This document shows, piece after piece, positions 29,469 to 40,047 of a DNA stretch of 64,000 bases. A model generated the notes under the pieces. That model did no database searches, had not been told where the DNA came from, and was given only the letters and a program-made list of their open reading frames with translations. The stretch covers positions 1 through 64,000 of the forward strand of contig DAIDGX010000013.1 in NCBI GenBank assembly GCA_027452165.1, given 5' to 3'. Both the position numbers and the translations under genes were made by a program. Positions within the stretch are counted from its first letter, which is position 1. Every line of letters begins with the position of its first letter. The DNA is from Vulcanimicrobiota bacterium. GTDB lineage: Bacteria > Vulcanimicrobiota > Vulcanimicrobiia > Vulcanimicrobiales > Vulcanimicrobiaceae.

Positions 29469-30008
29469 ATGTTCGTTCGATTCGTCCGCGCCTTTGCGGC
29501 GCTCGTGCTCGCAGCAACGATGCCGGCGCTCGCCGCGCTCAAGGACGGCAGCAAGGCACCCGACTTTACGCTGCAGGCGACGCAAGGCGGCAAGGTTTTT
29601 ACGTTCAGCCTAGCCGATGCGTTGAAAAAAGGTCCGGTGGTGCTCTACTTTTACCCGGCGGCGTTCACGCCGGGCTGCACGATCGAAGCGCACGATTTCG
29701 CCGATGCGATCGGGAAATATCGAGCGTTGCACGCAACCGTCATCGGCGTCTCGCATGATCCCCTGGCAAAGCTGCAGAAGTTTTCGGTAAGCGTGTGCCG
29801 CAAGAAATTCCCGGTCGCCGCCGACACGAATCAGGCGGTCGAGAAGGCCTACGACGCGGTGCTCGCGGCCGCGCCCGCGTACGCGAATCGCACCTCGTAC
29901 GTGATCGCGCAGAACGGCACGATCGTGTACAGCTACACCAATCTCAACCCCGACAAGCACGTCGCGAACACGCTCGCCGCGCTGAAGAGGCTCGAGACGG
30001 CGAAATAG
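29469..30008 (+). CDS. Secreted peroxiredoxin (AhpC/TSA-BCP family)
   Basis: The 179-residue protein has a signal peptide (MFVRFVRAFAALVLAATMPALA) before a peroxiredoxin domain. The peroxidatic Cys lies in YPAAFTPGCTIEAHDF; a second Cys further on (SVCRKKFPV) may resolve it. BCP-type enzymes are normally cytosolic, so export is noteworthy and suggests periplasmic peroxide defence. GAGGAGA lies 5 bases before the ATG. It follows the acyl-CoA dehydrogenase gene on the same strand, whose oxidase side reaction can yield peroxide, though the two act in different compartments. Confidence 0.88.
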   Translation: MFVRFVRAFAALVLAATMPALAALKDGSKAPDFTLQATQGGKVFTFSLADALKKGPVVLYFYPAAFTPGCTIEAHDFADAIGKYRALHATVIGVSHDPLAKLQKFSVSVCRKKFPVAADTNQAVEKAYDAVLAAAPAYANRTSYVIAQNGTIVYSYTNLNPDKHVANTLAALKRLETAK

Positions 30009-30010
30009 CG

Positions 30011-31201
30011 CTATCCGGCTTCGTCGTTTTGAAAGAGCTGTGGGGCGCCCGGCGTGCGTTTGGAACGCGCCGGGCGTTCTTGCGCGTCGAGCGCGGTGAC
30101 GCCGCGAGGCGCGAGATCGACCACGCTCACCTCGGGCAGATCGTCGCTCGAGAGCGCGGCTTCGTCTTTGAGTCTGCGCCCCTGCGGCAGTAGCCGCGTC
30201 TCGTAGGTGCCAACCGTTTCGTTGAAAGCGGAGACGGTGCGTTCTAGCGTTGCGCCGAGTTTCACCAAACGTTCGGCGAACTTCGTCGTGCGTTCGTAGA
30301 GTTCTCGTCCGAGCGTGGCGATGCGTTTGGCGTTCTCTTCTTGCTTTACGGCCTGCCAGCCCATAGCAAACGAGCGTAGAAGGCTAATCAACGACAGCGG
30401 CCCGGTGACGAGCACGCCGCGGTCGAGCGCATACTCGATGATGGCGGGGTTTTCGTTGCATGCCGCGCTCAAGAACGCTTCGCCCGGAACGAACATGATC
30501 ACGAAGTCGGCCGATCCCTCGATCTGGTGGTAGCCGCGTTTGGCGAGGGCGTCAATGTGATCTTGGAGTGCTTTGGCGTGGCGCTTCACGAGTTCGCGCC
30601 GCGCGTCATCGTCAACGGCGTCGAATGCGGCTTGCAGCGCGTCGGTTGGTGCTTTGGCATCGACGAAGACGCGGCGGCTACCCGGAAGATTGATCGTCAT
30701 ATCGGGACGTCCGCGTCCCGATTCGATCACGATCGTCTGTTGCTCGTCGAAGTCGCAGTATGCGAGCATCCCCGCCTTTTCCACGACGTTGCGCAGTTGA
30801 ATCTCGCCCCATTTGCCGCGTGTAGCCGGGCTGCGTAGCGCTGTTACGAGCGTGGAGGTTTGATTGGAAAGCGCGTTTGCCGCGCTCTCGATCTTGTCGG
30901 CGCGCAGCAACAGGTTCTCGATTTGTGCTTTGAGGCTGCCGGTATCTTCGTTGCGTTTGCTCTCGATCTCGCGAACAAGCCGGTCGAATTCGCCGAGTTT
31001 TTGCGCGATCGGGGCGACGATCTCTCCAACCCGTTCGCTCGCGCGCGCGGTCGTCGTTTCGCGCAGATCGTTTTTCGTGCGCTCGAGCAGCGCCTCGACC
31101 GCATGCACTTGATCGACGCGCCCGCGCTGCGCAAAGTGTACGAGCGCAGCGCCGATTGCGGCGCCGATCGCGAGAAAGAGAAGATCGATGATTGCGCTCA
31201 C
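30011..31201 (-). CDS. rmuC: RmuC-family protein
   Basis: RmuC proteins limit DNA inversions at short repeats; a nuclease role is proposed from the PD-(D/E)xK-like core. The 396-residue protein has an N-terminal membrane anchor (IIDLLFLAIGAAIGAALVHF), a coiled coil (about 30-120) and the RmuC core: SPATRGKWGEIQLRNVVEKAGM, a GRGRPDMTINLPGSRRVFVDAKAP segment, and FVPGEAFLSAA. The GTG start overlaps the LysR gene stop (GTGA). It is convergent with the peroxiredoxin gene, with only 2 bases between the stops. Confidence 0.88.
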   Translation of the reverse strand: MSAIIDLLFLAIGAAIGAALVHFAQRGRVDQVHAVEALLERTKNDLRETTTARASERVGEIVAPIAQKLGEFDRLVREIESKRNEDTGSLKAQIENLLLRADKIESAANALSNQTSTLVTALRSPATRGKWGEIQLRNVVEKAGMLAYCDFDEQQTIVIESGRGRPDMTINLPGSRRVFVDAKAPTDALQAAFDAVDDDARRELVKRHAKALQDHIDALAKRGYHQIEGSADFVIMFVPGEAFLSAACNENPAIIEYALDRGVLVTGPLSLISLLRSFAMGWQAVKQEENAKRIATLGRELYERTTKFAERLVKLGATLERTVSAFNETVGTYETRLLPQGRRLKDEAALSSDDLPEVSVVDLAPRGVTALDAQERPARSKRTPGAPQLFQNDEAG

Positions 31202-32121
31202 GATGTTGCCTCGAAGTGCTCCGTTAAAGCAGCGTGTTCGTTGGAGAGAAAGTCGCCGAACGCTCGTGCGAGCGGCGGCAGCGTGCGATCGTGCAGATGC
31301 ACGAGCGAAAATGCGCGCTCGAGGTCGAGATCGATGACGGGAATGGCGCGAATCGTTTTCATGGCAAGCGCGCGCTCCACAACACGCTCCGAAAGGATGG
31401 CGACGCCGAGCCCGGCTTCGACCGCCCGAGTGATCGCTTCGCCACCCGGAAACTCGATCACGAGCCGTGGACGAATTCCGCGCTCGAGCAAGAGTTCGTA
31501 GCCGAGGTCTCGGGTTCCTGATCCAAGCTCGCGGCTCACGAAGGGTTCGCCGTCGAGTTCCTCGGCACGTACGCTCTCGCGTGCGGAGAAGCGGTGGCCG
31601 TGTGGCGGAACGAGCAGCGCCATGCGGTCGCGCGCGAATTCGCGCATGGCGAGGTCGGGATGATCGAGCCGCCCCTCGACGAGCCCGAGATGCACGATGC
31701 CCTCGCGTACGAGTCGCGCTACGGCGCTCGTGTTGGCGACCTCGACGTGCGGAACCACATGCGGGCGATTGCGCATGAAGTGCGCGAGCAATCCGGGGAG
31801 CAGGTAGTTCCCGACGGTGAGGGTCGCGGCGAGTTGCAGCGATCCGCGTTCGGCGTTCCGGTAGTCGGCGGTCTCGCGCAGGAGCGTTTCGAGTTCGCGC
31901 CCGACGATCTCGGCGCGCTCCGCGACGAAGCGCCCCGCGTCGGTAAGCAGCGGCCGGTTCCGGACGATCTGGACCAGTTGGACGCCGAGCGCGCGCTGGA
32001 GGGAGGCGATCTGCTGGCTCACCGCCGGCTGGGTGACGTGGAGCGCGCGTGCGGCGCGGCTAAAGCTTCCCGTGCGGGCAATGCGGCGGAGGGCTTCCAG
32101 TTGGGCAAAGGTTATGGTCAT
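31198..32121 (-). CDS. LysR-family regulator, probably of the divergent sulfur cluster
   Basis: The 307-residue regulator has an N-terminal winged helix-turn-helix (FSRAARALHVTQPAVSQQIASLQRALGVQLV) and a LysR substrate-binding domain from about residue 90. It is divergent from a solute-binding protein, the secreted orphan, a TsdA-like cytochrome and a YeiH-type transporter. YeiH genes are classically paired with a LysR regulator (YeiE in Escherichia coli, a sulfite-responsive activator), so a role in sulfur-oxyanion sensing is a fair inference. The 70-bp divergent region is unusually AT-rich, as expected for a shared LysR-controlled promoter. Confidence 0.87.
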   Translation of the reverse strand: MTITFAQLEALRRIARTGSFSRAARALHVTQPAVSQQIASLQRALGVQLVQIVRNRPLLTDAGRFVAERAEIVGRELETLLRETADYRNAERGSLQLAATLTVGNYLLPGLLAHFMRNRPHVVPHVEVANTSAVARLVREGIVHLGLVEGRLDHPDLAMREFARDRMALLVPPHGHRFSARESVRAEELDGEPFVSRELGSGTRDLGYELLLERGIRPRLVIEFPGGEAITRAVEAGLGVAILSERVVERALAMKTIRAIPVIDLDLERAFSLVHLHDRTLPPLARAFGDFLSNEHAALTEHFEATS

Positions 32122-32191
32122 AAGAAAATGTTTAGATTAGCTGTAGAAACCCTAATTTGACTTATTGAAGCAAGAAGCCTAGCGTGGAGCC
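32122..32191. promoter_or_regulatory. AT-rich divergent promoter between LysR gene and solute-binding protein gene
   Basis: This 70-bp gap is strikingly AT-rich against its surroundings. TTGACT at 32157-32162 is a good -35 candidate for the rightward genes, with no strong -10 at the right spacing. That fits an activator-dependent LysR promoter. A GGAG ribosome site sits just before ATG 32192. The operator itself is not identified. Confidence 0.5.
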
Positions 32192-33085
32192 ATGATACGC
32201 ACGCTTACCCTCGCCGCCGCAGCGCTTGCGTTGACGCTCGGCGCGACGCCCGCGGCCCCCGTCAACGGGACCGTGCCGTGCGTCGATCAACTCATGGACA
32301 TCCATGGGAATCCCGTCGGTGCCGATCTCGTCATCTTTGCCGGGGGGAACCAGTGGTTTGTGATGCCGCGGCTGCTCGCGGCCTTCCAGCGCGCGCACCC
32401 CGAAGTGCGGCACATCTTCTACGAAACGCTTCCGCCGGGGCTGCTCGCTCGCCAGATGCAGACGGGCGGCTTGCGCATCGGCGATATGACGCTCTCGCTC
32501 CACGGCGACGTCTATCTCTCGGGCAAGAAGCGCATGGACGTCATGCGCGCGCAAGGCTACGTCGGCGCGCCGGTAACCTATGCGACCAACGTGCTCGCGA
32601 TCATGGTGAAAGCCGGTAATCCAAAGCACGTGACGTCGCTTACGGATCTCGGCCGCCCGAACGTCCGCGTTGCGATGCCGAATCCGAAAACCGAAGGCAT
32701 CGCACGCCAGATCGAGATTGCGTACCGGAAAGCCGGTGGCAACGCGCTCGATGCGACCATCATGCGCACGAAGGTGGCGAAGGGGAGCACGCGTCTTACG
32801 CAGATTCACCACCGGCAGACGCCGATGTGGATTTTGAGCGGAACGGTTGATGCCGGCCCCGTATGGATATCGGAGGCCCTGTACCAAGAGCGCATCCACA
32901 GCGGCATCGTTGCCGTGCGCATTCCCGCGAAGGACAATGTGGAGGCGATCTACATGGGTGCGACGGTCAAGGGTGCATCGCATCCCGCCGCCGCACGTGC
33001 ATTTGTAAACTTCTTGGCGTCACCGGCTGCACAGGCGATCTATCGCTCGTATGGCTTCGGGGCGCCGAAATCGACGGAGGAGTAG
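32192..33085 (+). CDS. Periplasmic solute-binding protein (ModA/sulfate-binding type)
   Basis: The 297-residue protein has a Sec signal peptide (MIRTLTLAAAALALTLGATPA) and a type II periplasmic binding fold: VIFAGGNQWFVMPRLLAAFQRAHPEV, then ATNVLAIMVKAGNPKHVTSLTDLGRPNVRVAMPNPKTEGI and a C-terminal VKGASHPAAARAFVNFLASPAAQAIYRSYGF. This is the pattern of molybdate and other oxyanion receptors. No permease or ATPase gene follows, so it may act as an orphan receptor or share a transporter elsewhere. It precedes the secreted orphan by 4 bases, in a cluster with a TsdA-like cytochrome and YeiH; a sulfur oxyanion is a reasonable but unproven ligand. Confidence 0.8.
   Translation: MIRTLTLAAAALALTLGATPAAPVNGTVPCVDQLMDIHGNPVGADLVIFAGGNQWFVMPRLLAAFQRAHPEVRHIFYETLPPGLLARQMQTGGLRIGDMTLSLHGDVYLSGKKRMDVMRAQGYVGAPVTYATNVLAIMVKAGNPKHVTSLTDLGRPNVRVAMPNPKTEGIARQIEIAYRKAGGNALDATIMRTKVAKGSTRLTQIHHRQTPMWILSGTVDAGPVWISEALYQERIHSGIVAVRIPAKDNVEAIYMGATVKGASHPAAARAFVNFLASPAAQAIYRSYGFGAPKSTEE
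33076..33082 (+). promoter_or_regulatory. Ribosome binding site for the secreted orphan gene
   Basis: GGAGGAG, lying in the last codons of the solute-binding protein gene, is 7 bases before ATG 33090. It rules out the longer in-frame start at 33051. Confidence 0.75.
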
Positions 33086-33089
33086 CTCG

Positions 33090-33797
33090 ATGAATCGTAC
33101 CGGTTTTCTCGCGGCGTCGGCCTCGCTCGTGGCCGCAGGATCTGCAGTCCAGGCAATCGCGGAAGGCGTGCCCGGTGGCACGCGCCTCGTGGAACGCAAG
33201 GCCGACTTCAACGAAGGCGCGTTCGCCAAAGTCGTCGGCCGTGCAGCCGATATCCGGCAGATGTTCGAATCGGTGTCGTTTAAGCCGACGCTGCTGGCTA
33301 ACGTCAAGAACTCGCTCAACGGTCTGCACTTCGGGTACGGATACCCGGCCGGCAAGATCGCAATCGTCCTTGCGAACCATGGCCCGTCCTCGGCCTACGG
33401 CTATAGCGATTACGTGTGGAAAAAATACAAGATCGGCGAGTTTTTCGGCATCAAGAACGATGCCGGTGCGCCGATCGAGAGCAATATATGGCTCAAGGCG
33501 CGCGCGAATGACACGAGCGCCGATCCCGACGATGAAAAGAGCATGTACCAAGACGTGTCCATCGAGACGCTCCAGAAACGCGGCGTGGTCTTTCTTACGT
33601 GCCATACCGCCGTCGAAGAACAGTCGCGTGCGATCGTCAAAAAAGGCCTCGCGCCCGCAGGTATGACCGGGAGTGAAGTGGCGGCCGACATCCTTACCCA
33701 CCTGATCCCCGGCGCCGTGGTCGTTCCGTCGATGGTTGCTACGGTCGCGGTGCTCCAGGCGAAGTACCACTACACCTATGCCGCGCTTACGTTTTAA
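33090..33797 (+). CDS. Secreted protein, possibly DsrE-like, associated with TsdA-like cytochrome
   Basis: The 235-residue protein begins with a signal-like sequence (MNRTGFLAASASLVAAGSA) resembling the tail of a Tat signal but with only one Arg. The mature part shows alternating strands and helices (GYPAGKIAIVLANHGPSSAYGYSDYVW) and GVVFLTCHTAVEEQSR with the single Cys at 171. The strand-Cys placement recalls DsrE-like sulfur carrier proteins, but the match is distant and by eye only. It is sandwiched between an oxyanion-binding protein and a TsdA-like cytochrome, and its stop lies 20 bases inside the cytochrome gene. A role as a periplasmic sulfur-handling partner is a hypothesis. Confidence 0.55.
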   Translation: MNRTGFLAASASLVAAGSAVQAIAEGVPGGTRLVERKADFNEGAFAKVVGRAADIRQMFESVSFKPTLLANVKNSLNGLHFGYGYPAGKIAIVLANHGPSSAYGYSDYVWKKYKIGEFFGIKNDAGAPIESNIWLKARANDTSADPDDEKSMYQDVSIETLQKRGVVFLTCHTAVEEQSRAIVKKGLAPAGMTGSEVAADILTHLIPGAVVVPSMVATVAVLQAKYHYTYAALTF

Positions 33798-34587
33798 CCT
33801 CGCGGCTCTTTTCGCGCTTGCCGCCGTCCTCATGACGGCGGCTTGCGCGCACCAAGCGCCTGAAAGCGCAACGCCCCTCTATGACCCGCAGACGTTGCCG
33901 AGCGGCCCGCTCGGTGCGTCGATCAAGCTCGGTCACGACATCATCATGAACCCGCAGAAGTATGTTCCGAACGACGTGGTTGCCGATATGTCGTGTGGAG
34001 CGTGTCACATCGCTGGTGGCACGATCAAACGCGGCGGCACGCTCGTTGGCGTTTACGCGCGGTTTCCGCAATGGAACAAGCGCTCCAAGCGCGTGATCAC
34101 CGTGCAGGATCGTATCGCGGAGTGCTTTCTGTATAGTATGAACGGCAAACCGCCAGCATACACGAGCAAAGAGATGAACGCGATGGTCGCATATATCGCG
34201 TATCTCTCGCGCAAAGTTCCAGTCGGCGCCAAAGAGGATCCGACGCAGCGTTTCATCGTCAAGACCCCGTCGGCGCCACCGGATTTGGCCCGCGGTGGGG
34301 CGCTCTATGCGCAGAAATGCTCGCTGTGCCATCAGGCAAACGGCGGCGGCGTGCACGGCGCGTTTCCGCCTCTGTGGGGCCCCAAGTCCTTCAATAACGG
34401 CGCAGGTATGTCGCACCTTGCGATGATGACCGGCTTCGTGAAATACAATATGCCGAAGAATGCACCCGGCACGCTTTCGCTCCAAGAAGCGTACGATATC
34501 TCCGGTTGGGTTCTCTCGCATGCGCGTCCCAAGTTCCAAAAGGGTCGCATGATCGTACAACCGGCAATGCCAGCGAAGTTCTTCTAG
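33778..34587 (+). CDS. tsdA: Dihaem c-type cytochrome lipoprotein, TsdA-like thiosulfate dehydrogenase
   Basis: TsdA couples two thiosulfates to tetrathionate and passes electrons to the respiratory chain. The 269-residue protein has a lipobox (MTAAC, Cys23), so it is probably membrane-tethered. Haem sites are CGACH (73-77) and CSLCH (181-185). Between them, DRIAECFLYSMNGKPP contains Cys116 in the same context as the Cys haem ligand of TsdA; Met residues near 211-225 may ligate the second haem. These features favour TsdA over a generic dihaem cytochrome. It overlaps the preceding gene and is followed 1 base later by the YeiH-type gene. Confidence 0.82.
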   Translation: MPRLRFNLAALFALAAVLMTAACAHQAPESATPLYDPQTLPSGPLGASIKLGHDIIMNPQKYVPNDVVADMSCGACHIAGGTIKRGGTLVGVYARFPQWNKRSKRVITVQDRIAECFLYSMNGKPPAYTSKEMNAMVAYIAYLSRKVPVGAKEDPTQRFIVKTPSAPPDLARGGALYAQKCSLCHQANGGGVHGAFPPLWGPKSFNNGAGMSHLAMMTGFVKYNMPKNAPGTLSLQEAYDISGWVLSHARPKFQKGRMIVQPAMPAKFF

Positions 34588-34588
34588 C

Positions 34589-35557
34589 ATGGTTGGGTTT
34601 TTGCTCTGTTTCGCCGTGGCGCTCGTCGCCACGGTGCTCGGCGACGCCATGCCGATCGTCGGCGCGCCGGTCATCGCGATCTTGCTCGGTGTCGTCATCG
34701 CGATCGTGCGTCCGCCGTCGGCCGCACTCAAGCCGGGCATCCTCTTCTCGGCAAAGCAGTTGCTGCAGTGGTCGATCGTGCTGCTCGGCGCAAACTTGAG
34801 CCTGAGTGAGATCGTGCATGGTGGTGCAACCTCGTTGCCCGTCATGCTGGGTACGTTCGTCATCGTGCTGGTCTTAGCGTACGTGCTCGGCGGCATGCTG
34901 GGACTCGATCGTGACCTGCGCCGGCTCCTCGGTGTCGGCACCGCCATCTGCGGCGGCTCGGCCATCGCCGCGCTCTCGAGCGTGATCGAGGCGGACTCCG
35001 CCGATATCGCTTATGCGCTCGGCGCGGTCTTTCTGTTCAACGTGGTCGCGGTCGTGCTCTTTCCGCCGATCGGTCACTTGTTCCACTTCACGCAGTCGGC
35101 GTTCGGGTTATGGGCCGGCACGGCGATCAACGATACGTCGTCGGTTGTAGCCGCAGCGTTTGCTTTCGGACATCAAGCCGGTACATCGGCGGTGATCGTG
35201 AAGTTGACGCGTACCACGCTCATCGTGCCGATCGTGTTGTTCTACGCATGGCGGCGCGTCGCGCAATCGCGCGGCGGCGAGCGCGTCGATCTGCGCGCGA
35301 TCATGCCGTGGTTCATTCTGTGGTTTCTTTTCGCTGCGACGTTAAACTCGTTTGGGTTGATCCCGGCGGCCGTGCAGGCACCGCTTCAAAAGCTCGCGCT
35401 CTTCGCGATCGTCGTCGCGCTCGCAGGCGTGGGTCTGGGTACCGACGTGGCCAAGATTCGGAGCGCCGGCCTGCGCCCGCTCGCGCTCGGCGCGATGCTG
35501 TGGGTCGCCATCTCCTTCGCGAGCCTCGGTATCGCAGCGTTGACGAAGGTATTGTGA
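34589..35557 (+). CDS. YeiH/UPF0324-family putative sulfate or sulfite exporter
   Basis: The 322-residue membrane protein has about ten hydrophobic segments and family motifs: IVLLGANLSLSEI, GVGTAICGGSAIAALSSVI, LWAGTAINDTSSVVAAAFAFG and VKLTRTTLIVPIVL. It lies directly behind the TsdA-like cytochrome gene. YeiH proteins are annotated as sulfate exporters on thin evidence; regulation by sulfite-responsive YeiE in enterobacteria supports a sulfur-oxyanion role. A perfect GC hairpin 130 bases downstream marks the end of the cluster. Confidence 0.85.
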   Translation: MVGFLLCFAVALVATVLGDAMPIVGAPVIAILLGVVIAIVRPPSAALKPGILFSAKQLLQWSIVLLGANLSLSEIVHGGATSLPVMLGTFVIVLVLAYVLGGMLGLDRDLRRLLGVGTAICGGSAIAALSSVIEADSADIAYALGAVFLFNVVAVVLFPPIGHLFHFTQSAFGLWAGTAINDTSSVVAAAFAFGHQAGTSAVIVKLTRTTLIVPIVLFYAWRRVAQSRGGERVDLRAIMPWFILWFLFAATLNSFGLIPAAVQAPLQKLALFAIVVALAGVGLGTDVAKIRSAGLRPLALGAMLWVAISFASLGIAALTKVL

Positions 35558-35742: not shown

Positions 35743-38700
35743 GTGACGGACGCGGTCGTCAAAGTGACCCTCCCGGAGATGGGGGAGTCGGTTGCCGAGG
35801 GCTCCATCGTGGAGTGGCGCAAGAAGGTTGGCGATTTCGTCACCGAGGGCGACACCCTGGTCGATGTGACGACCGACAAGGTGGACGTCGAGGTGCCGGC
35901 AACGGCATCGGGCGTGATCACGCAGCTCTTCGGCGGCGAGGGCGATGCGGTCGCTGTCGGCGCCGTGCTCGCCGAGATCGACACCACGAAAGCCGCTTCC
36001 GGGAACGGGAAAGCCGGCACGAACGGGCATGCGGCCACGAACGGCGCCACCCCGGCCGTTGCGCCCGAACGCAAAGGCCCGCCGCACCTCGTCGCCGTGA
36101 CGCTGCCCGAGATGGGCGAGTCGGTCACCGAGGGGTCGATCGTCGAGTTTCGCGTGAAGCCCGGGCAGTACGTGCACGAGGGCGACACCATTGCCGATGT
36201 GACCACCGACAAGGTGGACGTCGAGGTGCCGGCTCCCGCCGCGGGCGAGGTTACGCAACTCTTTGGTGCGGCCGGAGACACGATCGCGGTCGGCGCGAAA
36301 CTCGCCGAGATCGACGTCAACGCGCCCATGCAACAGGCGCAAGGCGTCGTAGCCAAGCCGCAGGGTGACCACACAGCCGCCGCTGTACCGGCCGCCGGTG
36401 CGGCGTCTCTCGCCCCGTCGAGCGCATCGAAGGGCGAGGCGCTTGCGACCGCGCAAGCGCGGCGCATCGCGCGCAAGCAAGATTTGGATCTGCGCCTCGT
36501 GCGCGGGTCGGGCCCGGATGGGCTCATCATGCGCGCCGACGTGCTGGCGCAAGCCGAACAGGCGCGCCGCAAACCCGCTGCGGCCGCAGCGGGGAATCTG
36601 CCGCCGCTTCCGCCGGTTGCTGCAAACGCAACCGTGACACCGCTCAAGGGTCCGGCTGCGGCGCTTGCGGGATACATGGATCTCTCGCTTACGATTCCAA
36701 CCGCGACCAGTTTCCGCACGCTGCCGGTGGACACGCTCGATGCGCGTCGCAAAGAGCTCAACGGCGCGCTCGCTTCGGCCGGACGCAAAGAGAAGGTCTC
36801 GTTTACGCACCTCATTGCCTACGCGATGGTGCGCGCGGCAAGCGAGATGCCGTTCATCACGTATAGCTTCCGTCGTGACGCGAACGGTGCGCCGGTGCGT
36901 GTGGAGCCCGGCATTCACCTGGGCCTCGCGGTCGATTCCGAACGCAAAGACGGGACGCGCTTCCTCGTGGTCCCGGTCATCAAGAACGCGGACGCGCTCG
37001 ATTTCGCCGGATTTTTCGCGCAGTATCAAACCTTGGTTGATAAGGCGCGTGACAACAAACTCGGCGCCGACGATCTGCAAGGCGCGTCGTTCACGCTGAC
37101 CAATCCGGGCGGCATCGGTACGGTCGCGTCGGTTCCGCGTCTGATGGCGGGACAGGGCGCGATTCTTGCAACCGGCGCGATCGGCTATCCGCCGGGCTTC
37201 GGCAACCTACCCGACGCGACGGCGAAGTCGCTCGGTATCAGCAAGATCATGCAGATGACGAGCACGTACGATCACCGCGTCGTGCAGGGCGCGCAGTCGG
37301 GTGAATATCTGCGCCGCGTCGATCAACTTTTGCAAGGCAAAGACGGCTTCTACGAGACGGTCTTCGCTGCGCTCGGGCTCACCGCGGGGCCGCTGAAGCT
37401 GGAGTCACCGCGGAGCAGCGACGGGATGGTATCGGCCAAATCTTCAGCGATTCCGGATAAAATCGTGCCGAGCGACGAGATGCTGCGCGCCGTTGCGGCC
37501 GCGATGGCGATCGTCTCGGGCTACCGCACGCATGGGCACCTTGCCGCGCAACTTGATCCGCTCGGCTCCGCTCCGCTCGGCGATCCGAAACTCGATCCCG
37601 CATCGTACGGCCTGACGCCGGCACTTCAAGCCGCGATTCCGGCCTCGGTGCTCAACGTCAAAGTTCCGGGCAACACGCTTGCCGATATTCTGCCGCGCTT
37701 GAAAGAGACGTACAGCTCGACGATCGCGTACGAATTCGAACACATTTCGAACACCGATCAGCGTCGCTGGTTGCGAGAAACGATCGAAAGCGGCACGCAC
37801 AAGGTCGCGCTCTCGCCGCAGCGGCAAATCGAAGTATTGCAGCGTCTCACCAAGGTTGAGACGTTCGAACGCTACATCCGCAAGACGTTCCTTGGGCAGA
37901 AGAGCTTCTCGGGCGAGGGCCTCGACGTGATGGTTCCGATGCTCGAAGAGATGCTTGACATGTTTGCCGACGACGGTACGCCGAACGCGGTGATGGGGAT
38001 GGCGCATCGCGGCCGCCTGAGCGTGATCGCGCACGTCGTGAACATGCCGTACGAAGAGCTGCTCGGTGAGTTCGAAGCGGCTCACCAGCGCGGCGAGGTG
38101 TCGAGCGACGACGACGTGACGGGCGACGTGAAGTATCACCACGGCGCAACCGGCGTCTATACCACGACGAGCGGCAAGCAAATCATGGTGACGCTGCAGC
38201 ACAATCCGTCGCACTTGGAGGCGGTCGATCCGGTCGTCGAAGGGCGCACGCGCGCGCTGCAAAGCGACCACACCCACGCGCTTCCGGAACTCGACGTCAA
38301 GAAGGCAGCGCCCGTACTCATTCACGGCGATGCGGCGTTCACGGGTCAAGGCATCATCTCGGAAGTCTTCAACCTCCAGTCGCTCAAAGGCTATGCGACC
38401 GGCGGCACCGTGCACTTGATCGCGAACAATCAGATCGGGTTTACCACCGATTCGCCCGACTCACGTTCGACGCGCTACGCCTCGGATTTGGCGAAGGGCT
38501 TTGATGCGCCCATCATTCACGTCAACGCCGATGACGTGGACGCGTGCATCTCGGCAGTGCACCTGGCGATCGAGTTCCGCAAGCGATTCGCGCGCGACGT
38601 CGTGATCGATCTGATTGGCTATCGCCGCTTCGGGCACAACGAACAAGACGAACCTGCGTACACCCAGCCGCTGATGTACGAAAAGATCAAATCGCATCCG

Positions 38701-40047
38701 ACGGCACGTGAACTTTTTGCGAACAAGCTGATCGCGCAGGGCGTGATCTCGGCCGATGCGGCAAACGGGATGATTGCCGATGCCACCGCGCGTTTGCAGG
38801 AGGCTTACAAGAACATCAAGGCCGCGCAGGGCAAGGGCATGATCGAGAAGATCAGCGCCTCGGCCCCGCTGCCGACCGCCACGCTCGTGCCGATCGACAA
38901 GACGCAGTTGCTCAAGTGGACCGAGGATTTGGTCGCCGTTCCGCAGGGCTTTGTGATCAACAAAAAGCTCGTCACGCAGTTCGAGCGACGCCGCGCCTTG
39001 ATCGCAGGCAAAGGACTCGTGGACTGGGGCATGTCCGAAGGGCTCGCGTTCGCGTCGCTGCTTGCATCCGGCGTGCCGATACGCATATCGGGGCAAGATA
39101 CCGAACGCGGAACGTTCAGCCATCGTCATGCACTCTTGCACGACCCGGCGAGCAACTCCGAATACGTGCCGCTCCAGCATCTAAAGGAGTCGAAGGCGAG
39201 CTTCGAGATTCACAATAGCCCGCTCTCCGAGTATGCGTGCCTTGGATTCGAATACGGTTACGCCGTGGCGGTACCGAGGGCGCTCGTGCTGTGGGAAGCG
39301 CAATTTGGCGATTTCGTCAACGGCGCGCAGATCATCATCGACCAATTTATTGCGGCCGGGCAGGCGAAGTGGGGGCAGACTGCGCGTCTCACGCTGCTGC
39401 TGCCACACGGGTACGAAGGTCAGGGCCCGGAACACTCGAGCGCACGGCTCGAGCGATTCCTGCAGCTAGCGGCCGAGAACAACCTGCGCGTTGCGTATCC
39501 GTCGAACGCGGGCAATTACTTCCACCTGTTGCGTACGCAGGCAAGCACGCCGAATCCGGTACCGCTGATCGTGATGACGCCGAAGTCGCTCCTGCGCGCC
39601 GAGACGGCCGCCGGATCGATCGACGACATGGCGACCGGCGAGTTCAAGCCGGTGATCGACGATCCGAACGCAACCGACAAGAAGAAGATCGAACGCATCT
39701 TGCTCTGCACGGGGAAGGTGTACTACGATCTGCTCGCGTCAGAGCTCTACGGCAAAATGAAGAAGACGGCGATCGTCCGCATCGAACAGCTTTCACCGAT
39801 GCCCGGCGCCGAGATCAACGCCGTCCTCGACACCTACCCGAATCTCAAATCACTCGTGTGGGTGCAAGAAGAGCCGAAAAACATGGGCGCCCGCGCATAC
39901 GTGCGTCGCCGTTTGCTCGAGAAGCTCACGAAGCCGCTCGACATCGGTTACGCCGGCCGCGGCTATCGCGCATCCCCGTCGGAAGGCTACCCCGGCGCGC
40001 ACGCGGTCGAGCAAGAGCGCTTGATCACGATGGCGCTGACGGAGTAG
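35743..40047 (+). CDS. Fused 2-oxoglutarate dehydrogenase: two lipoyl domains, PSBD, E2 and E1
   Basis: The 1434-residue protein combines the first two activities of the 2-oxoglutarate dehydrogenase complex of the TCA cycle. Two lipoyl domains (about 6-80 and 117-191) each carry DVTTDKVDVEVP, with lipoyl lysines at 46 and 157. An Ala/Pro linker leads to a peripheral-subunit-binding domain (about 233-270). The E2 acyltransferase core (about 320-540) has its catalytic His511 in YDHRVVQGAQSGEYL, the QG form of actinobacterial OdhA/Kgd. The E1 part (about 600-1434) has AMGMAHRGRLSV-type and GHNEQDEPAYTQP motifs for thiamine diphosphate and Mg. Mycobacterial Kgd has E2 core plus E1 but no lipoyl domains, so this is a more complete fusion. 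The start is GTG. No E3 gene is nearby. Confidence 0.93.
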   Translation: MTDAVVKVTLPEMGESVAEGSIVEWRKKVGDFVTEGDTLVDVTTDKVDVEVPATASGVITQLFGGEGDAVAVGAVLAEIDTTKAASGNGKAGTNGHAATNGATPAVAPERKGPPHLVAVTLPEMGESVTEGSIVEFRVKPGQYVHEGDTIADVTTDKVDVEVPAPAAGEVTQLFGAAGDTIAVGAKLAEIDVNAPMQQAQGVVAKPQGDHTAAAVPAAGAASLAPSSASKGEALATAQARRIARKQDLDLRLVRGSGPDGLIMRADVLAQAEQARRKPAAAAAGNLPPLPPVAANATVTPLKGPAAALAGYMDLSLTIPTATSFRTLPVDTLDARRKELNGALASAGRKEKVSFTHLIAYAMVRAASEMPFITYSFRRDANGAPVRVEPGIHLGLAVDSERKDGTRFLVVPVIKNADALDFAGFFAQYQTLVDKARDNKLGADDLQGASFTLTNPGGIGTVASVPRLMAGQGAILATGAIGYPPGFGNLPDATAKSLGISKIMQMTSTYDHRVVQGAQSGEYLRRVDQLLQGKDGFYETVFAALGLTAGPLKLESPRSSDGMVSAKSSAIPDKIVPSDEMLRAVAAAMAIVSGYRTHGHLAAQLDPLGSAPLGDPKLDPASYGLTPALQAAIPASVLNVKVPGNTLADILPRLKETYSSTIAYEFEHISNTDQRRWLRETIESGTHKVALSPQRQIEVLQRLTKVETFERYIRKTFLGQKSFSGEGLDVMVPMLEEMLDMFADDGTPNAVMGMAHRGRLSVIAHVVNMPYEELLGEFEAAHQRGEVSSDDDVTGDVKYHHGATGVYTTTSGKQIMVTLQHNPSHLEAVDPVVEGRTRALQSDHTHALPELDVKKAAPVLIHGDAAFTGQGIISEVFNLQSLKGYATGGTVHLIANNQIGFTTDSPDSRSTRYASDLAKGFDAPIIHVNADDVDACISAVHLAIEFRKRFARDVVIDLIGYRRFGHNEQDEPAYTQPLMYEKIKSHPTARELFANKLIAQGVISADAANGMIADATARLQEAYKNIKAAQGKGMIEKISASAPLPTATLVPIDKTQLLKWTEDLVAVPQGFVINKKLVTQFERRRALIAGKGLVDWGMSEGLAFASLLASGVPIRISGQDTERGTFSHRHALLHDPASNSEYVPLQHLKESKASFEIHNSPLSEYACLGFEYGYAVAVPRALVLWEAQFGDFVNGAQIIIDQFIAAGQAKWGQTARLTLLLPHGYEGQGPEHSSARLERFLQLAAENNLRVAYPSNAGNYFHLLRTQASTPNPVPLIVMTPKSLLRAETAAGSIDDMATGEFKPVIDDPNATDKKKIERILLCTGKVYYDLLASELYGKMKKTAIVRIEQLSPMPGAEINAVLDTYPNLKSLVWVQEEPKNMGARAYVRRRLLEKLTKPLDIGYAGRGYRASPSEGYPGAHAVEQERLITMALTE

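Follow-up and report, generated by a model that had tools for sequence, protein, structure and literature searches.

Why, in a soil bacterium from Eremiobacterota, a little-known phylum, do thiosulfate-oxidizing proteins of two unrelated kinds have adjoining genes? The question is raised by a compact cluster on contig DAIDGX010000013.1, of which we analyzed the first 64,000 nucleotides (hereafter the window). In this cluster a gene for a diheme cytochrome c of the TsdA family follows one for an exported protein related to the heme-free thiosulfate dehydrogenase (TSD) of Acidithiobacillus ferrooxidans, and we lean towards reading the whole as an extracytoplasmic, tetrathionate-forming module for thiosulfate oxidation. 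A preliminary description of the locus had reported a LysR gene diverging from four tightly packed genes, and the positions of the open reading frames agree: the divergent spacer between lysR and the binding-protein gene measures 70 bases, the binding-protein and TSD-like genes are separated by 4 bases, the TSD-like gene overlaps tsdA by 20, and a single base lies between tsdA and yeiH. The features are as follows.

31198-32121, minus strand: LysR-type regulator, YeiE/CbbR-like (Pfam HTH_1 and LysR_substrate)
32122-32191, strand not applicable: divergent promoter region, a conserved spacer with an inferred candidate promoter
32192-33085, plus strand: exported solute-binding protein (SBP), SBP_bac_11 (PF13531, 170 bits)
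33090-33797, plus strand: TSD-like exported protein (NF052225, 111 bits; hhalign; AlphaFold2 (AF2); Foldseek)
33778-34587, plus strand: TsdA diheme cytochrome c with a lipoprotein-like signal (PDB 4wqc, E 1e-46; tree; ligands)
34589-35557, plus strand: YeiH family membrane protein (PF03601, 253 bits; TIGR00698, 150 bits)

The TSD-like protein had been described as a secreted orphan with one cysteine. Its only cysteine is indeed Cys171, which is invariant, but the orphan label has to be given up, since the protein is homologous to the characterized TSD superfamily. The sole NCBIfam match is NF052225 (thiosulfate dehydrogenase TSD; 111 bits, E 6e-32), the model of the A. ferrooxidans-type TSDs, and it falls below the curated cut-off of 300 bits. 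An hhalign comparison with TSDs over that cut-off gave 99.8% (E 1e-30) across 186 columns in which the Cys-His motifs fall into register, against 0.05% for an unrelated alignment used as negative control, and W, Y, N, RG and C are invariant across the TSD-like group and the TSDs over cut-off. By these profile comparisons the window protein is distantly homologous to the heme-free A. ferrooxidans TSD. It is up to 84% identical to the TSD-like proteins of Eremiobacterota metagenome-assembled genomes (MAGs) that carry the same locus; in the named collection these MAGs are the nearest relatives of the window's genome, which places it in Candidatus Eremiobacterota. Where a Tat-type export signal was looked for, the window protein reads NRTGFL, with one Arg, and several relatives and the TSDs over cut-off have RR. 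The only Pfam match, RL10P_insert, was set aside as chance.

The AF2 model of the TSD-like protein (predicted local distance difference test, pLDDT, 89; predicted template modeling score, pTM, 0.85) has as its best PDB match in Foldseek 1L1S, which we take to be a DsrE-like protein, with a probability of 1.0 and a template modeling (TM) score of 0.75 by target, yet an E of 0.014. Annotated DsrE proteins align with the TSD-like group at 96% in hhalign (E 3e-9), with the conserved Cys in register, and TSDs over cut-off align with DsrE at 86.7%; the Pfam DsrE model PF02635 gave no match to the TSD-like protein at E<1. We consider a DsrE-like fold likely for the modeled protein and less securely predicted for the TSDs over cut-off. 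As the AF2 model of one such TSD, from the Eremiobacterota genome G029 (18-row alignment, pLDDT 77), returned no usable Foldseek match, the fold claim draws on the window protein and on the profile comparison. Such a fold supplies a candidate catalytic Cys for mutation. The thiosulfonate chemistry of the DsrE/TusA thiosulfate carriers is a plausible parallel. Metallosphaera cuprina DsrE3A (PMC4175335) shares with the window protein the predicted DsrE-like fold and the conserved Cys, and its Cys S-thiosulfonates are formed from tetrathionate; it is encoded beside Hdr and TusA genes, whereas the TSD-like protein is exported and encoded beside a cytochrome.

The cytochrome has Allochromatium vinosum TsdA (PDB 4wqc, E 1e-46) and Marichromatium purpuratum TsdBA as its best solved relatives. 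Both CxxCH sites and the Cys ligand within AECFLYSMNGK, as previously noted, were found: heme 1 would be ligated by His/Cys (C73xxC76H77 and C116) and heme 2 by His/Met (C181xxC184H185 and M225, next to N224). C116 aligns with the A. vinosum Cys ligand and is kept in all 71 aligned TsdAs (41/41 from Eremiobacterota, 25/25 from Acidobacteria, 5/5 proteobacterial), and the heme-2 Met is present in every aligned TsdA that has a residue at that position. A 58-row tree puts the cytochrome within TsdA, as had been proposed, with SoxA of the same phylum separating at 100/100 support; a placement outside TsdA, named beforehand as the refuting outcome, was not seen. Membership in SoxA, the other candidate, is ruled out by the tree together with the model score (51 bits, cut-off 110). 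Judged by ligands and placement, the protein is a true TsdA. It resembles the TsdAs of A. vinosum and Campylobacter jejuni and M. purpuratum TsdBA in its two CxxCH sites, heme-1 Cys, heme-2 Met and clade; known TsdAs occur with TsdB or alone, whereas this one has a binding protein and a TSD-like partner. The TsdA mechanism involves a Cys S-thiosulfonate on the heme ligand (PMC4423706).

How regularly do the two genes occur together? Within the family, two genome scans compared by hand gave 52 genes of this TSD-like subgroup, and 46 of these have tsdA within about 130 bases, 45 of them on the same strand; of the other six, two extend past the end of their contig. A second count, made by script on named contigs with a distance limit of 4 kb, covered 41 Eremiobacterota and 38 Acidobacteria loci; it shares genomes with the 52-locus set, and the two are not additive. 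Here the pair was found at 34/41 and 25/38 loci, respectively, and a further four and eight loci without the pair were cut by contig ends. The binding protein accompanies 17/41 Eremiobacterota loci, 30/38 Acidobacteria loci and most plasmid loci; the trio of TSD-like gene, binding protein and TsdA is complete at 25/38 Acidobacteria loci, and YeiH and LysR each occur at 17/41 Eremiobacterota loci. A search of relatives for the full set, suggested earlier as a check, recovered the order LysR(-)>SBP>TSD-like>TsdA>YeiH at 13/41 Eremiobacterota loci, and the same kinds of gene on a Bradyrhizobium plasmid. Because the five-gene order recurs at 13/41 loci and the TSD-like/TsdA pair at 34/41, the arrangement is not due to chance. 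The constant part of the cluster is the TSD-like gene with tsdA; the binding protein is common, and LysR and YeiH are optional.

This linkage recurs in three phyla and in differing orders. Eremiobacterota loci read SBP>TSD-like>TsdA and those of Acidobacteria, including the cultured Acidipila rosea, TSD-like>SBP>TsdA. Proteobacterial plasmids of Paraburkholderia, Bradyrhizobium and Methylobacterium carry a TSD (416-418 bits) followed by a binding protein, a cytochrome c and TsdA, with SQR-like, metallo-hydrolase, TauE, SoxB-like or cytochrome oxidase genes as neighbors; the Bradyrhizobium betae plasmid also has LysR, YeiH and a SoxB-like gene, and thus all five gene kinds of the window. On a Gluconobacter plasmid TSD and the binding protein are followed by a fused DoxD-DoxA (L163, 8608-9729), with no TsdA in that place. 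Since the linked TsdAs fall in three separate clades, the TSD/TsdA partnership does not go back to a single inherited locus; it arose, or was rearranged, repeatedly. The most telling locus is that of G029, flanked by RmuC/acyl-CoA dehydrogenase genes on one side and sucAB on the other, where the TSD-like gene is replaced by a TSD that scores 401 bits, over the cut-off, and overlaps tsdA by 11 bases. We regard this substitution at the same locus as our best evidence that the window protein does a TSD-like job beside TsdA.

We infer the substrate, the direction, the Cys chemistry, a physical coupling of the TSD-like protein to TsdA and the role of the binding protein as follows. In the periplasm the binding protein would trap a sulfur oxyanion. 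Thiosulfate would be taken up, probably as Cys-S-thiosulfonate, by the TSD-like protein, which would act as a thiol protein of DsrE fold through a single catalytic Cys (Cys171). The lipoprotein-anchored TsdA would use its Cys-ligated heme 1 to draw off the electrons and pass them via heme 2 towards a terminal oxidase, with tetrathionate being freed. YeiH may remove toxic sulfite or sulfate made as a side product, and the LysR protein may activate the operon, with sulfite as the likely signal. The window's genome encodes two heme-copper oxidases, and because of their presence electrons from TsdA could reach oxygen via cytochrome c. The comparative gene data are in line with the earlier suggestion of a pathway fuller than TsdA alone.

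Several observations weigh against this reading. A TSD-like gene stands without TsdA at 3/41 Eremiobacterota and 5/38 Acidobacteria loci that are not cut by contig ends, and the binding protein is absent from 24/41 Eremiobacterota loci. TsdA likewise stands without a TSD-like gene at the locus in the SoxA-bearing genome G008 (L166); G042 (L165), also SoxA-bearing, has the same arrangement, and G008 encodes a TSD over cut-off elsewhere. The TsdA of other organisms oxidizes thiosulfate alone, A. ferrooxidans TSD failed in vitro to reduce horse cytochrome c, and a cultivated Eremiobacterota strain with Sox showed no lithoautotrophic growth on thiosulfate. Moreover, the window protein is about 25% identical to TSDs over cut-off and scores far below that cut-off, so that it may have another activity. 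It could, for instance, be a periplasmic DsrE-type sulfur carrier or sulfurtransferase and no oxidase, with the redox chemistry of thiosulfate left to TsdA only. The DsrE-like fold, the position of the Cys and the low score would suit such a role, and in a class-level relative (G106) the gene sits between metallo-hydrolase-like and rhodanese-like genes ahead of TsdA, by sequence reading only. We nevertheless doubt it, given that in G029 a TSD over cut-off takes the protein's place.

An uncoupled pair is unlikely in our view: the TSD-like protein and TsdA would then be two independent dehydrogenases for different pH or substrate ranges, for which speak the members of both families that are active alone and the genomes that have either one without the other, but the near-constant adjacency across the family, the genes overlapping or only shortly spaced, together with linkage in differing orders in three phyla, exceeds what redundancy needs. 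Distinctly improbable is a reversal of the reaction, in which TsdA would act as a tetrathionate reductase in anaerobic respiration and the TSD-like and binding proteins would capture and load tetrathionate. TsdA enzymes are bidirectional, and Metallosphaera DsrE3A reacts with tetrathionate, not thiosulfate. The heme-2 pocket of the window TsdA reads K-x-N-M, with Asn before the Met at the position of A. vinosum Lys208, like the tetrathionate-reducing C. jejuni TsdA, which also has Asn before its heme-2 Met, and unlike A. vinosum TsdA with Lys-Met. However, Asn-Met recurs at the corresponding position of M. purpuratum TsdBA, and published mutants of A. vinosum TsdA exclude Lys ligation as the cause of directionality; for both reasons the direction cannot be read from Asn-Met, and we dropped the pocket as an indicator. 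The plasmid neighbors (SQR-like, SoxB-like and oxidase genes) form an oxidizing context, and the heme-copper oxidases of the window's genome likewise argue against reduction.

The thiosulfate-oxidizing module that we favor is a variation on thiosulfate dehydrogenase systems already known. Nearest to it among known clusters stands the tsd/sbp/doxDA/rhd set of A. ferrooxidans (PMC6335251), which likewise combines a TSD-family gene with one for a sulfate/molybdate-type binding protein. The electron partner there is DoxDA (thiosulfate:quinone oxidoreductase), whereas the window has TsdA, and the published legend to that cluster names neither LysR nor YeiH. The A. ferrooxidans TSD is an equivalog and the window protein a distant homologue; the Gluconobacter order of TSD, binding protein and DoxDA parallels that of A. 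ferrooxidans tsd, sbp, doxDA and rhd. The gene set had been noted as not known to have been described; this holds in that we found no account of TSD, binding protein and TsdA together in the literature searched, with subscription papers outside its scope, but not for tsd with sbp, already published for Acidithiobacillus. All in all, the earlier sulfur interpretation is partly supported and was mostly right.

What the pairing could contribute concerns the TSD family itself. A 2019 review lists the structure and mechanism of TSD as unresolved, and in a 2024 review the electron acceptor of the heme-free enzyme carries a question mark. As the acceptor is listed as unknown and the pairing is recurrent, TsdA-type cytochromes or DoxDA are testable candidates, and the recurrent TSD/TsdA partnership suggests a likely answer to where TSD sends its electrons. 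More tentatively, TSD-family proteins may be DsrE-fold subunits that load thiosulfate. Their physiological acceptor would be a diheme cytochrome of TsdA type, or in other lineages DoxDA, and a dedicated, free-standing binding protein would feed them; together these would make up a multi-part thiosulfate oxidase in at least three phyla. We see this wider proposal as possible rather than probable. In single searches of the window's genome, the basis of all absences from that genome given here, neither SoxA nor DoxD was found. With the module present and SoxA not found, a route of thiosulfate oxidation in Eremiobacterota and Acidobacteria may escape Sox-based annotation.

The window binding protein is 47-51% identical to the protein encoded directly after TSD on proteobacterial plasmids, with values of 47-49% for those of Paraburkholderia, Bradyrhizobium and Methylobacterium. 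An alignment across three phyla contains an invariant IHHR inside LTxIHHRQTP, together with MPNP and DAG motifs, and these could indicate where a dedicated family of binding proteins holds its ligand. The CysP model gave 40 bits, short of its cut-off of 308. A role in an ATP-binding cassette (ABC) transporter was rejected, as the cluster has no ABC permease gene and the window's genome yielded neither a CysT over cut-off nor a paralogue of the binding protein. An Acidobacteria MAG (L147, 7001-8440) has a tandem pair of TSD-like genes, followed by those for the binding protein and TsdA. A different lineage of the same phylum (L176, L177) lacks a TSD-like gene at the locus, and its binding-protein gene diverges from that of a distant TsdA. 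On the B. betae plasmid (L160, 8875-10320) a gene for a SoxB-like protein (326 bits, cut-off 550) separates the binding-protein gene from the cytochrome genes.

The sulfite connection proposed earlier for YeiH and LysR gains from one residue: Glu149 of the window LysR aligns, in PDB alignments to 8sbh and 7erp, with the Glu by which Cronobacter YeiE tells sulfite from sulfate (PMC12423496). In Salmonella, YeiE controls YeiH, which gives sulfite resistance (PMC12880088). The window LysR scores 169 bits with NF040889 (YeiE), below the cut-off of 480, and the membrane protein 150 bits with TIGR00698 (YeiH), below 232.6, and 253 bits with PF03601, well above that model's cut-off; export of sulfite/sulfate is its likely function by family. 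The divergent LysR, YeiH in the operon and the conserved Glu recall the YeiE-YeiH sulfite pair of Salmonella, Cronobacter and Hyphomicrobium, whereas here YeiH ends a TSD-like/TsdA operon and both scores stay under the YeiE and YeiH cut-offs. Because more than half of the relatives' loci lack them, we place YeiH and LysR outside the core as a sulfite accessory. The spacer at 32122-32191 is almost unchanged across three genomes, as is the conserved block CCTAATTTGACTTATTG within it. A candidate sigma-70-type operon promoter consists of TTGACT (32157-32162), N17 and TAGCGT (32180-32185); as this candidate -10 stops six bases short of the binding-protein ATG, the operon transcript may be nearly leaderless.

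Two neighbors flank the cluster. Upstream, an exported AhpC/TSA-type peroxiredoxin (29469-30008, plus strand) is kept across the family. On the other side, 35743-40047 (plus strand) encodes a 1434-amino-acid fusion of two lipoyl domains, an E3-binding domain, an E2 acyltransferase and an E1 2-oxoglutarate dehydrogenase, which adjoins the cluster in most relatives.

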